Below, one piece after another: positions 7,158-11,673 of a stretch of 22,794 nt of DNA. The stretch is taken from positions 1 to 22,794 of IMG/VR virus record IMGVR_UViG_3300025168_000720. One strand, 5' to 3'. A program made the position numbers and the translations under genes. The notes beneath the pieces were generated by a model, which was not told the DNA's origin, did no database searches, and saw nothing but the letters and a program-made list of their open reading frames with translations. Each line of letters begins with the position of its first letter. Within the stretch, counting starts at the first letter, position 1. The DNA is from a virus.

Positions 7158-10100
7158 CTACTGAACAATAACGTTGCTTAAACCTTTGTTGACGTTAATT
7201 TCTACAAGTCCATCAACCATGTCTTTCATTATATCTATATGAGATATTATCATTACAAAATCAAATTCTACTTTCAGATAATCAAACAGCATAGAAAGCG
7301 AGTTTAGATTATCTGAGTCAAGATTTCCAAATCCTTCATCGACTGACAAGAAATTAGGTCTTGGCAAATTAGATATCTTAATTAGTGCAACTCTTATTGC
7401 TAGAGATGATATAAATTTTTCCATACCAGAAGTAAGCTCTAATGGCCATTTATTGTCATCGCTATATTTTATATAACTTAATATGTTTTTACCATCAACA
7501 TCGAATTCGATTTCAAACTCTACTATCTGAGAAAGAGTGTTGTTTATTTCCTCTTCCAAATAAGGCAGCGTTTGAGCTATAATCTCATAAGGTATACCGT
7601 CTCTCTTAATAGCATCTAAATAATACTCGTATGATTTAAGTTTTAATTCTAGTTCATGAGCTTCGGTTATAGTGTTTTTTATATGAGATATATTCTGATC
7701 AGTTATTGTTACGTTGCTATATGCCTTCTGAAGGTTAGACTGAACAACATCCAATTCTACCTTTATTGATGACTTCTCTATTTCTAATGTATCTATAGCT
7801 TTGTTAATGCGCTCATTGTTCTTTATAAATTCAACATTGCTATGGTACTTCTCGATATCACGTATAACACCCTTTAGTTCAGTTTTCTTTGCGCGTAGGT
7901 TGGACTTTCTTTCAAGTGATTTGATTCTTATTTCCGATTCATATTGGGAAATTGTCAACTTTTCTGATTGTAGCTTATTATGTATATCTATTAGGTTATT
8001 TACATCTAGATAGCCTTTTAGTACATCATCTGATATTGTTTTGTCGTTTAATAACTTCTTAACAATTACCTTTTCTTCTATCAATTCTATCTTAGCTTTG
8101 TCTGCAGCTTTAACAAATTCATTGTTGCAGCAGTAATTACAATTAGGGTCATATTCGTGTGTGTCCAACTTAGATATTAAATCAAGCTTGTTTCTAACGC
8201 TAACTTTCTTGATTTCTATAGACTGCTCGAGACCTATATTGTTTTGCTTCTCAACATTAAGTAATTCAAGTCTGTTATTCAAGGAATTTATATCTATTTT
8301 TGAAAGCTTACTGTTTATATCAACATACTTCTTTTTATTGTCTTTTGTATAATTTCGATACTTGTCTAATTTGTAATTGTGCACTTCAATATCTTTTTCT
8401 ATTCTAGATTTTACACCTTCTAGCTTGTCGATATCATTTTCTACTTTTATATTCTTTAGCTCTTTAGTCTTATGCTTTATACTGTCTTCTTTGTTTCCAT
8501 ACTTTTTTTGTATTTCGTTTTTATCATTTTCAAAATCCTTGTATACTTCTTTGAAGTTGCCAAGCTTCTCTTCTTCTTCGATAAGTTGTTCCGCATAATC
8601 TGTCTTTCCAAAGTTCTTTAATAGTATCTGAACCTCTTTTATTTCTTCGTTTGCTAAATGATATAACTCTTCAAATACAGTTATGTCTAAAAACTGCGAT
8701 AGTAAATCTTTCTTCTCAACTTGTGACTGATCTATAAATCCTGTGTTATTGTTTTGAACTGACATTGATGTTAGTACAAAGTCATTGTAAAAACCTAGAT
8801 AACCTCTTATGTTTTTATCTGTCTGAGTTCTTTGCTCACCGTTTAAATATATTATATTGTCATCTTCACCTATCATCCAAAATTGAACGTCAACTCTTAC
8901 GTGACCTGATTTTTCTTTCTTACCTTTCCGCTCGATGAAATAATCAACTCCATCTATTTCAAAATTTAATTTAGAGTAGAAAGATTTCTTTTTATTGTTA
9001 AGCACATCTGATGCTGATTTTGTTCTTGAGCATTTATGGAATATGTTAAACATAAGAGCATCTAGTATTGCAGACTTGCCTGAGTGGTTAGGTGCAAAAA
9101 TACCTACAACATCTCTAAGTTTTGTAAAGTCTATAGAGTTGTTTTCACCATAGCTAAACATATTTGAAAATTCAAATTTCTTAGGGAGCCAATTAACTCC
9201 ACGTGATATTTCTATATTTTTTAAATTCTTATTTAGCTCAGTGTTTATATTTTTAATACGCCTTATAGTTTCGTCATCAGCTGGATGGTTTGTTCCAATA
9301 TATTCTTCTAGTAATTCGTTTTGATATTGAACATTTCTTATATCTCTAGTTACAGATCGAGGTGTTTTATTTTGAGCATCAAGCTTATCGCTTTTTATGA
9401 TAACAATATCTTTAGTCGTGCATTTACTTTTAATTTCTTTTATAACATCTTTTAATTGAGCTTGAGTTGTATTAGAAGTCTTTATTCTTACTCTAGGATA
9501 TTTAGGTATATCATCAATGTTGGGGAGTGTTCCTGAATCTACTGCTACTGTATAAAAACCATGCACATTTTCAAAGTTTTTAAATGAAGCTACTCTTGTT
9601 TCAACATCCCATATTGCACAGCCGTGGTTGTCGAAAGCCTCTCCAAAGTTTTGTTGTATCAAAGATCCTACTTGTAGTATTGTTTTATTTTTATCATAAA
9701 ACTGACGCTTGTGTATATCACCTAGCATCACCATATCATATCCCTTAAACATTGATATTTTCAAGTTGTCGCTTTCTACTTTATATCCTGCATCTGTATA
9801 TGACATATCAAGAGCTCCGTGAAAAAGAGCAACCTTTGTCTTTGCTTTAAAAGAACTTGATTTTATAAATGTTGTTGGGTCATCAAATATACTGAATACG
9901 GTAAAGTGTGTACCTGCTATTTCGTGCACAGCTGAGTCCTTTAAGTAATGTAGCTGTGGGTGGTTTAAAGATTCTATCATCGGTGTTAACGAATCAAGTC
10001 TAGATGAGTTATTTAAGTTTGCATCATGATTACCTGTAATAACTATTGTGTGTCTTCTATCTGCTAAATTCTTAAAGAATTCTGTTGTTAAATCTATAAG

Positions 10101-10307
10101 CTCAGGTGATATATCAGTCTTGCTATGTACAACATCACCACCTACATACACTATAGAGTTTTTAGGTAAAGCGTCTACTTCTTTATAGAGCTGCCTAAAT
10201 ACTTTCCTGTATTCTTTGTGTCTTTGATAATTTCTTATATGTATATCAGCAACGTGTAATACTTTTTCTAATTTTTCAAATCCTACATCTATTTTGTTAA
10301 AGTCCAA
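7158..10307 (-). CDS. Fused SbcD(Mre11)-SbcC(Rad50) recombination nuclease/ATPase, 1049 aa
   Basis: This is one chain holding both halves of the gp47/gp46-type complex that resects DNA ends for recombination and repair. Residues 1-250 are the metallophosphoesterase: DIH (21-23), GGD (56-58), GNHD (92-95), FHG (162-164) and GDIH (196-199). Residues 375-550 hold the N-terminal ATPase lobe with Walker A APNHSGKS (405-412) and a Q-loop near SVQNN (516-520). Residues 550-900 are a long coiled coil with a Rad50 zinc hook, CNYC (723-726). Residues 950-1030 hold the signature TSGMEKF (959-965), Walker B FLSVDEGFG (986-994) and H-loop ISHID (1021-1025). T4 encodes the halves separately (about 339 and 560 aa). 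The start is TTG at 10307, with GGAG seven bases upstream; the next in-frame upstream stop lies only two codons away and no ATG comes before residue 110. It overlaps the primase gene by 11 bases. All key residues are present, so it is probably active. Confidence 0.92.
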   Translation of the reverse strand: MDFNKIDVGFEKLEKVLHVADIHIRNYQRHKEYRKVFRQLYKEVDALPKNSIVYVGGDVVHSKTDISPELIDLTTEFFKNLADRRHTIVITGNHDANLNNSSRLDSLTPMIESLNHPQLHYLKDSAVHEIAGTHFTVFSIFDDPTTFIKSSSFKAKTKVALFHGALDMSYTDAGYKVESDNLKISMFKGYDMVMLGDIHKRQFYDKNKTILQVGSLIQQNFGEAFDNHGCAIWDVETRVASFKNFENVHGFYTVAVDSGTLPNIDDIPKYPRVRIKTSNTTQAQLKDVIKEIKSKCTTKDIVIIKSDKLDAQNKTPRSVTRDIRNVQYQNELLEEYIGTNHPADDETIRRIKNINTELNKNLKNIEISRGVNWLPKKFEFSNMFSYGENNSIDFTKLRDVVGIFAPNHSGKSAILDALMFNIFHKCSRTKSASDVLNNKKKSFYSKLNFEIDGVDYFIERKGKKEKSGHVRVDVQFWMIGEDDNIIYLNGEQRTQTDKNIRGYLGFYNDFVLTSMSVQNNNTGFIDQSQVEKKDLLSQFLDITVFEELYHLANEEIKEVQILLKNFGKTDYAEQLIEEEEKLGNFKEVYKDFENDKNEIQKKYGNKEDSIKHKTKELKNIKVENDIDKLEGVKSRIEKDIEVHNYKLDKYRNYTKDNKKKYVDINSKLSKIDINSLNNRLELLNVEKQNNIGLEQSIEIKKVSVRNKLDLISKLDTHEYDPNCNYCCNNEFVKAADKAKIELIEEKVIVKKLLNDKTISDDVLKGYLDVNNLIDIHNKLQSEKLTISQYESEIRIKSLERKSNLRAKKTELKGVIRDIEKYHSNVEFIKNNERINKAIDTLEIEKSSIKVELDVVQSNLQKAYSNVTITDQNISHIKNTITEAHELELKLKSYEYYLDAIKRDGIPYEIIAQTLPYLEEEINNTLSQIVEFEIEFDVDGKNILSYIKYSDDNKWPLELTSGMEKFISSLAIRVALIKISNLPRPNFLSVDEGFGNLDSDNLNSLSMLFDYLKVEFDFVMIISHIDIMKDMVDGLVEINVNKGLSNVIVQ

Positions 10308-11202
10308 ATTTCATCTCCACTATTTTTCTCAAATCAAGAATTTCTGTACTACTTATTAACTTGTTTATTTTATCTTTCCCCATTTCGTTAGGGTCTGTAT
10401 CGATTGGTATGTCTATCATTCTTACGTCTATTCCTTCTGACAACAATGACTCTGAAAGTTCTAATGCTTCCTTTCTAGCATCGTTGTCAAGTACAATGTT
10501 AACTCTGCTAACTGATTCGTCTTTTAATTTCTGCTTTAACGCTTTAGGTAAAAACTTTCCAAATATAGGAATGGTATTCTCACCTATTGTCATTGCATCA
10601 AATACACCTTCACATATGTTAACGCTTTCTTTCCAATTTATTAAAAGCTCAAAGCCTATTATATCCTTTGATACTTTTGGATTTTTGTGTTTAAAGTCTG
10701 ATTCATAATATGATCTGCCTACAAAATAATTAAGTACGCCATCTTTATCATAGCTAGGAATTATAATCATTCCTGAATATGGTCCAGCTTCACAATAACC
10801 TATATTATGCCTAAGTACATCTATCTTACTTAAGCCTCGAGACTTTAAGTACTTAGCAGCATTTCTAAATTCAGGACTATTGATTGATCCGTTTATCATA
10901 GGTGTAAATTCTAGTGGAAGTGAAACATGTTCTTTCTCATCTTTTTTAGTAAAAGTTTTTATTTTTGAAAGACGTTTAAGAATAGGTATTTTGTCATACG
11001 CTTTCATTTTCTTAAATACGCGTTCCAAACCTATACCTTTGACTCCGCACACCCAACAGTGCCATTTTTCAGTTTGAGTGTTTATAACAAGCTTCATTTT
11101 GTGATGGTCGCAATAAGGACACGAAAACGTAGATTCATTACCACTAGTCTTTGACCTACCTAGTATACCTTCTAATAAGTTTATAAGTTGTCTGTTCTTC
11201 AT
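10297..11202 (-). CDS. DNA primase, zinc finger plus TOPRIM (gp61/DnaG-like), 301 aa
   Basis: This enzyme would synthesise RNA primers for lagging-strand replication. A CHC2-type zinc ribbon lies at residues 28-52, with Cys28, Cys31, Cys49 and Cys52 (SCPYC and HCWVC). The middle region (110-190) contains GLSKIDVLRHNIGYCE and MIIIPSYDKDG, as in the DnaG core. The TOPRIM domain has Glu198 in ICEGVFDAMT and the Asp-x-Asp pair D239/D241 in VLDNDAR. There is no helicase or DnaB-binding domain. The length of about 300 is close to T4 gp61 (about 342). The start ATG 11202 has no clear Shine-Dalgarno site, unlike most neighbours. Its last 11 bases overlap the SbcD-SbcC gene and supply that gene's ribosome-binding site, so the two are probably translationally coupled. 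Whether it is gp61 proper or another phage DnaG branch cannot be told by eye. Confidence 0.88.
   Translation of the reverse strand: MKNRQLINLLEGILGRSKTSGNESTFSCPYCDHHKMKLVINTQTEKWHCWVCGVKGIGLERVFKKMKAYDKIPILKRLSKIKTFTKKDEKEHVSLPLEFTPMINGSINSPEFRNAAKYLKSRGLSKIDVLRHNIGYCEAGPYSGMIIIPSYDKDGVLNYFVGRSYYESDFKHKNPKVSKDIIGFELLINWKESVNICEGVFDAMTIGENTIPIFGKFLPKALKQKLKDESVSRVNIVLDNDARKEALELSESLLSEGIDVRMIDIPIDTDPNEMGKDKINKLISSTEILDLRKIVEMKFGL
10305..10318 (-). promoter_or_regulatory. Ribosome-binding site and TTG start of the SbcD-SbcC gene
   Basis: On the coding strand GGAG (10318-10315) is followed by seven bases and then TTG (10307-10305). In this frame a TGA stop lies at 10313-10311, so translation cannot start further upstream, and there is no ATG until far inside the nuclease domain. 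The site lies within the last codons of the primase gene, which favours coupled translation. Confidence 0.75.
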
Positions 11203-11226: not shown

Positions 11227-11240
11227 GATATATTATAATT
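11227..11240 (-). promoter_or_regulatory. Candidate -10 element upstream of the primase (weak)
   Basis: A perfect TATAAT (11237-11232 on the coding strand) overlaps the stop codon of the GIY-YIG gene, 29 bases before the primase ATG. No convincing -35 lies 16-18 bases upstream (AAAGCA at 17). In DNA this AT-rich a chance match is likely. It is listed only because a replication gene inside a late operon would need its own promoter. Confidence 0.2.
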
Positions 11241-11673
11241 TTAACTCGTTTATTTGCTTTTCAGTTTTTGATGTGAACTTTACTTTTGCAAATCTTCTAG
11301 GGCCTATACAATCATTGTAGTATTCTTTTTTTATCGATACGTGATATCTATGATGTATGTTTTCTTCCAAGTAATTTACTTGACCTTTAGTCTCTCCCAT
11401 TATCAGTATTTCAAAACTAAAATTTTGCTTACCTAACTTTATAATATCTGCGTTGAGTTGTTTTGAAGATCCTGTATAATCTCTCCAATTTGAATCTTTT
11501 CTTATAACCTTGCGTCGCTTTTTGCCTTTTACTTTTACTCTGCGTGTAGTACCAAAGTATTTTCTACCGATGTATTTTTTGTCTGATTTTAAATTTGTAA
11601 TTAAATAAACGAATCCAAAATAACCTTCAGGTGCTTCATCGACACTTGTGTCTTTATATAACCAGTGACTCAT
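11233..11673 (-). CDS. GIY-YIG endonuclease (Seg-like, possibly homing), 146 aa
   Basis: A free-standing GIY-YIG nuclease. The catalytic core is visible: FVY at residues 21-23 (the GIY strand) and YIGRK at 34-38 with Arg37; Glu103 or Glu104 in YLEENI is the likely metal ligand, and Asn120 follows in the YYND stretch. A strongly basic insert (residues 42-60, rich in Arg and Lys) and NWRDYTGSS (62-70) follow the second strand and probably contact DNA. This arrangement recalls the Seg-like GIY-YIG proteins common in T4-like phages. The start ATG 11673 has AAGGAG upstream, and the gene lies 12 bases after the LamG structural gene. It stands exactly at the border between structural genes and the primase/SbcCD island. 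It could be a homing endonuclease or a resident nuclease; no intron or target site is visible. Confidence 0.85.
   Translation of the reverse strand: MSHWLYKDTSVDEAPEGYFGFVYLITNLKSDKKYIGRKYFGTTRRVKVKGKKRRKVIRKDSNWRDYTGSSKQLNADIIKLGKQNFSFEILIMGETKGQVNYLEENIHHRYHVSIKKEYYNDCIGPRRFAKVKFTSKTEKQINELKL

Follow-up and report, generated by a model that had tools for sequence, protein, structure and literature searches.

Fused Mre11-Rad50 proteins were described in 2011, when Mimivirus R555 was reported together with twelve other fusions of this kind, which spanned bacteria, eukaryotes and plasmids and included one from a Bacillus phage (Yoshida, Claverie and Ogata; PMC3175470). Homologues of R555 were found to be abundant in aquatic viral fractions, phage primases were located on the same scaffolds, and a phage origin was suggested for some of them (PMC3175470). 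The R555-type fusions retain the helix-loop-helix (HLH), the native gap to be bridged is approx. 28 Å and needs 9-12 residues, and the active site of R555 departs from the usual one at two positions: the third Asp of GDxxD is replaced by His, and His206 by Asp (PMC3175470). The same two activities are encoded, in the same gene order (47 then 46), by gp47 and gp46 of T4 and by their cyanophage and pelagiphage homologues, but in T4, Syn19, HTVC008M and LR756511 these are two separate genes with the canonical GHxH motif. The bacterial SbcD/SbcC and the archaeal and eukaryotic Mre11/Rad50 enzymes are likewise made of two polypeptides.

The fused gene and its domains

The window (the whole stretch of 22,794 nucleotides that was analysed) is a contig recorded as a virus in IMG/VR, and no tRNA gene was found in it. 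Its minus strand carries one uninterrupted reading frame of 1049 codons at positions 7158-10307, while the plus strand of the same region is full of stops. A Shine-Dalgarno sequence, GGAG, lies at 10315-10318, 7 nt upstream of the TTG start. The preliminary description had placed a single-chain fusion here, nuclease first and ATPase second; its coordinates were right, the strand is added now, and the reading frame together with the family and fold matches bore out the domain order. The features are as follows.

7158 to 10307, minus strand: fused Mre11/SbcD-Rad50/SbcC gene, 1049 aa, TTG start, stop included
9567 to 10307, minus strand: Mre11 calcineurin-like nuclease domain, residues 1-247; D21/H23, G57-D58-xx-H61, GNHD 92-95, H163, GDIH 196-199
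9393 to 9557, minus strand: Mre11 capping domain, residues 251-305, from AlphaFold models aligned with the SbcD/Mre11 capping region
9228 to 9332, minus strand: Mre11 helix-loop-helix (Rad50-binding motif), residues 326-340 and 345-360, from the models and the 7yzo_B alignment
9192 to 9227, minus strand: the true inter-protein linker, residues 361-372
8628 to 9191, minus strand: Rad50 N-lobe, residues 373-560; Walker A APNHSGKS (9072-9095), Q-loop Q518
8172 to 8681, minus strand: ascending coiled coil, residues 543-712, from the model
8130 to 8141, minus strand: zinc hook, C723-N-Y-C726
7608 to 8120, minus strand: descending coiled coil, residues 730-900, from the model
7161 to 7595, minus strand: Rad50 C-lobe, residues 905-1049; signature TSGMEK (7416-7433), Walker B FLSVDE (7335-7352), H-loop H1023
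10297 to 11202, minus strand: DNA primase (Toprim), 301 aa, overlapping the start of the fusion by 11 bp

The chain thus runs from the nuclease through the capping domain, the helix-loop-helix and a 12-residue connector to the Rad50 N-lobe, the coiled coil with its zinc hook, and the C-lobe. Family and fold matches were significant for both halves. In Pfam, Metallophos was matched at residues 15-200 (E 1.9e-10, above the cut-off) and AAA_23 at residues 381-602 (E 1.7e-5, one bit under its cut-off), and in PHROGs the SbcD-like phrog_100 covered residues 15-354 (E 7.6e-30) and the SbcC-like phrog_77 residues 276-1046 (E 2.9e-41). Searches of NCBIfam and of PDB sequences concurred for both halves with weaker scores, thus the protein is a divergent member. 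The model of residues 1-372 matched Mre11/SbcD structures with a Z score of 22.9, and the E. coli SbcD chain 7yzo_B could be aligned through residue 363 (Z 21.7). Residues 373-1049 matched E. coli SbcC and archaeal Rad50 with Z up to 27.7, the value obtained for E. coli SbcC. With the two-polypeptide enzymes of bacteria, archaea and eukaryotes the protein shares the zinc hook and the folds of its two halves (Z 22.9 for the Mre11 half, 27.7 for the Rad50 half), at an identity of roughly 12-21% in the structural alignments. The mean pLDDT of the AlphaFold models was 78.9 for the full chain and 84.1 for residues 1-372; with a pTM of 0.44 the full-length model is usable for the domains, but the relative placement of the halves in it is unreliable.

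The catalytic, ATP-binding and zinc-hook residues were kept in nearly all of 103 distinct full-length relatives. The Walker A, Q-loop, Walker B, D-loop, H-loop and zinc-hook motifs of the Rad50 half were conserved among them, and both cysteines of the CxxC hook at the coiled-coil apex (C723 and C726) were present in 103/103. The first arm of the coiled coil varied in length from about 168 to 247. The five Mre11 motifs were also conserved in the fused relatives, with two replaced positions: GDxxD is changed to GDxxH (H61 in 102 of the 103) and GHxH to GDxH (D197 in all 103). The change from His to Asp at the metal-ligand position D197 could alter metal binding or activity. The ABC signature reads S-G-M-E in each of the 103 fused relatives, compared with S-E-G-E in T4, Syn19 and HTVC008M. 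The statement that every motif of both partners is present was hence correct in that the motifs of both were found, but it passed over the GDxxH and GDxH replacements and the S-G-M-E signature.

The junction between the two halves

A linker of about 125 residues had been proposed between the two partners. About 125 residues do part the nuclease from the ATPase; however, they consist of the capping domain, modelled as strands and helix, and the helix-loop-helix, and only residues 361-372 form a connector. Its length is practically fixed: 12 residues in 101 of the 103 distinct relatives, 11 in one and 13 in another. The loop between the capping domain and the HLH varies from 20 to 24 in the same proteins, and W373, directly after the connector, is invariant. 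Since the HLH is retained and the connector agrees with the 9-12 residues estimated in 2011 for the native gap of about 28 Å, the suggestion that the fusion may change the docking of the Mre11 C-terminal helix was weakened. In each chain the helix-loop-helix would probably dock in cis, on that chain's own coiled coil; no conclusion on docking geometry was drawn from the full-length model because of its pTM. Nor does the idea that the fusion fixes the stoichiometry add much, since the separate Mre11 and Rad50 proteins already assemble as M2R2.

The reading frame as a single product

The contig is metagenomic, and T4 and the cyanophages have separate 47 and 46 genes, close together and in the same order, so adjacent genes might have been joined by a stop or frameshift missed in the linker during sequencing or assembly. 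Independent, uninterrupted relatives refuted this artefact. A second contig (L002) differed from the window by 4 mismatches and by no indel in 9692 bases (99.96% identity), and the fetched loci, a few of them on cut contigs, contained 124 full-length fused proteins (window included), 103 of them distinct and from different contigs. These read through the same region, and no frame break is hidden in the linker. The constant connector length of 12 residues in 101/103 speaks against the artefact as well, as does Microcystis phage Mel-JY01, whose complete genome also has the gene in fused form. The dN/dS values were low over both halves and the junction, although they are indicative only, dS being near or above saturation for most pairs; in these sequence comparisons the fusion gene is under purifying selection, and the low values at the junction count against the artefact too. 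The probability left to a joining error is negligible. In one locus (L052) a stop was present at residue 834 of the fusion.

One reading frame might still give two products, either through an internal start that yields a free Rad50 or through processing of the chain into two. Nearly all relatives conserve an in-frame ATG (M383) near the start of the Rad50 half. The protein itself accounts for this, because M383 lies within the first Rad50 strand motif, FSNMFSYG, and a product starting there would lose the first strand. No Shine-Dalgarno sequence precedes M383 in any relative scanned, so that an internal start was rejected and a free Rad50 is unlikely; two products from the one frame are thus highly improbable.

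Relation to known fusions

A profile search of IMG/VR gave at least 575 relatives, a figure that counts profile matches and not proteins each checked as fused; with the 103 distinct full-length fusions this answers the proposal to look for other fused proteins in viral databases. Compared with the published description of R555, the window gene appears to be an R555-type fusion, a known kind. It resembles R555 in the domain order within one chain, in the retained HLH, in a connector of about 9-12 residues and in both unusual Mre11 substitutions, GDxxH and GDxH, and the R555-like genes are similar in their abundance in aquatic viral fractions and in the phage primases on the same scaffolds. It differs in length (1049 aa as against 1351 aa in R555, so the coiled coil is shorter here) and in its carriers, which for the window family are tailed phages with T4-type capsid relatives. 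The best viral structural matches were DNA repair exonucleases of giant viruses of about 1.2-1.4 thousand residues, Tupanvirus first (E 6e-66), followed by phage proteins including those of pT24 and PTm1 and H9NCG5; from its length of 1301 aa we infer that H9NCG5 is PAU gp288.

Among named phages, Mel-JY01 infects a freshwater cyanobacterium, and its protein (WWT39521.1) is 41% identical over 98% of the chain. It is annotated as an 'AAA domain containing protein', the fusion being unrecognised there. Single reading frames with an N-terminal Mre11-like and then a Rad50-like part also occur in cultured jumbo phages: Sphingomonas phage PAU (gp288), Tenacibaculum phages pT24, PTm1 and PTm5, and Chryseobacterium phages MA9V-1 and MA9V-2. 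These proteins are longer (about 1300 aa); compared with the LR756501 fusion, the query of the search, their identity is only approx. 23-24%, and in PAU and PTm1 one or both of the R555-type substitutions are missing. They are annotated as metallo-phosphoesterase or DNA repair proteins, those of PAU (L186) and PTm1 (L187) only as metallo-phosphoesterase in RefSeq. The novelty implied in the preliminary description was accordingly not upheld: the fusion was described in 2011, R555-like genes were already abundant in aquatic viromes and cultured jumbo phages have it too, so that for the most part it is both common and already described.

Two large phage genomes showed further arrangements. In the 484-kb LR756508.1, the Mre11 half of the fusion is interrupted shortly past the GDIHKRQ motif by a 305-aa reading frame with a TnsA-like endonuclease domain (L067:3692-4609); no Rfam match to a group I intron was found in the interrupted gene. 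The 735-kb LR756501.1 (L068/L161) has, besides its 1202-aa fusion, a separate SbcC-like gene at another place in the genome.

The phages that carry the fusion

Since the window contig has no capsid gene (gp23), long relatives were used to place the carriers. A T4-type gp23 was present in 10 of 12 long relatives and RecA/UvsX in 8 of the 12, and the only strong phrog_77 (SbcC-family) match in each long record was the fusion itself. In the relative with 82% identity, gp23 was nearest to those of Mel-JY01 (48%), Flavobacterium phage immuto (46%), the 484-kb LR756508 (46%) and RM378 (35%). As the gp23 proteins of the long relatives are nearest to those of Mel-JY01, immuto and RM378, the carriers appear to be uncultured phages of the distant Far-T4 group, a label that for the window itself rests on its relatives. 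RM378 is the isolate that is linked to the Far-T4 group, and Bacteroidetes hosts have been assigned to one marine genome of the group (PMC4360716, PMC7198788); the text of neither paper mentions Rad50. No Mre11 or Rad50 homologue could be detected in immuto (L151) and RM378 (L152), two gp23 relatives of the phages with the fusion.

A tree was built from 19 fused and 4 separate forms, and a single, fully supported branch divided the fused from the separate ones. The tree contains only four separate forms and long branches, and the PAU and PTm1 fusions and the interrupted LR756508 gene were left out; its topology fits one fusion event without proving that there was only one. No plasmid match was obtained, and plasmids were rejected as carriers. 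A cellular origin was rejected as well, only five MAG contigs being matched in 84,980 genomes. At least two of these five show the same primase-fusion neighbourhood, therefore they are probably phage.

The primase gene is a constant neighbour: a homologue lies directly upstream of the fusion in 136 of the 138 loci with enough flank, and the two genes overlap in a large subset of loci. The pair is flanked by tail-type genes. A SegE-like GIY-YIG reading frame (window 11233-11673) adjoins the primase and has homologues, with up to 86% identity, in 68/138 loci, a position unusually constant for a homing-type nuclease. The order GIY-YIG, primase, fusion is the same in Mel-JY01, where a small reading frame lies between primase and fusion.

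Proposed function

We take the gene to encode a fused R555-type Mre11-Rad50 (SbcD-SbcC) nuclease-ATPase of uncultured Far-T4 phages, which would process DNA ends as an M2R2 assembly for recombination-dependent replication; the probability of this reading is put at about 0.82. As SbcCD and T4 gp46/47 are its homologues, two chains would be expected to pair through their Mre11 and Rad50 heads into the same M2R2 head as in SbcCD, acting as a presumably Mn-dependent nuclease and ATPase. ATP binding and hydrolysis would open and close the access of the nuclease to DNA ends. Double-strand ends would then be trimmed or resected, handing 3' single strands to the phage RecA/UvsX, and these strands may serve recombination-dependent replication and repair, as with T4 gp46/gp47.

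The protein might instead be a repurposed relative, such as a nuclease that degrades the host genome or counters defence, and not a recombination or repair factor. T4 gp46/gp47 are annotated as needed for host-DNA degradation in addition to recombination, the active site and the ABC signature are variant, and the primase-fusion pair lies among tail-type genes. PADLOC also gave matches to LmuB and mad8; these were weak and partial and are probably due to the ABC fold that the proteins have in common, and a defence function was rejected. The constant primase neighbour and the presence of RecA/UvsX in the same genomes favour replication and recombination, and no defence-type partner was seen in the loci examined. 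Repurposing is thus unlikely.

The recombination enzyme might also differ in mechanism from its two-subunit counterparts. The connector could be a functional strut that ties the HLH to the N-lobe of its own chain and forces docking in cis, coupling the ATP-driven closure of the head to the nuclease in a way unlike the two-subunit enzyme; with GDxH and SGME this would define a mechanistically distinct single-chain class, found widely in Far-T4 phages of aquatic habitats and, through gene transfer, in giant viruses as well. We offer this extension tentatively and consider it rather doubtful.

Significance

The fusion is genuine, and it is very common among the phages of aquatic habitats. The 2011 study suspected phages, but the carriers were then uncertain; the loci analysed here place R555-like fusions in Far-T4 phages, where each record has one clear copy of the gene, with a primase as its fixed neighbour. 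The fusion is under-recognised, since only one of its halves is named in several database records. At about 1050 residues, this natural single-chain Mre11-Rad50 is a practical object for structures of the ATP-gated nuclease.
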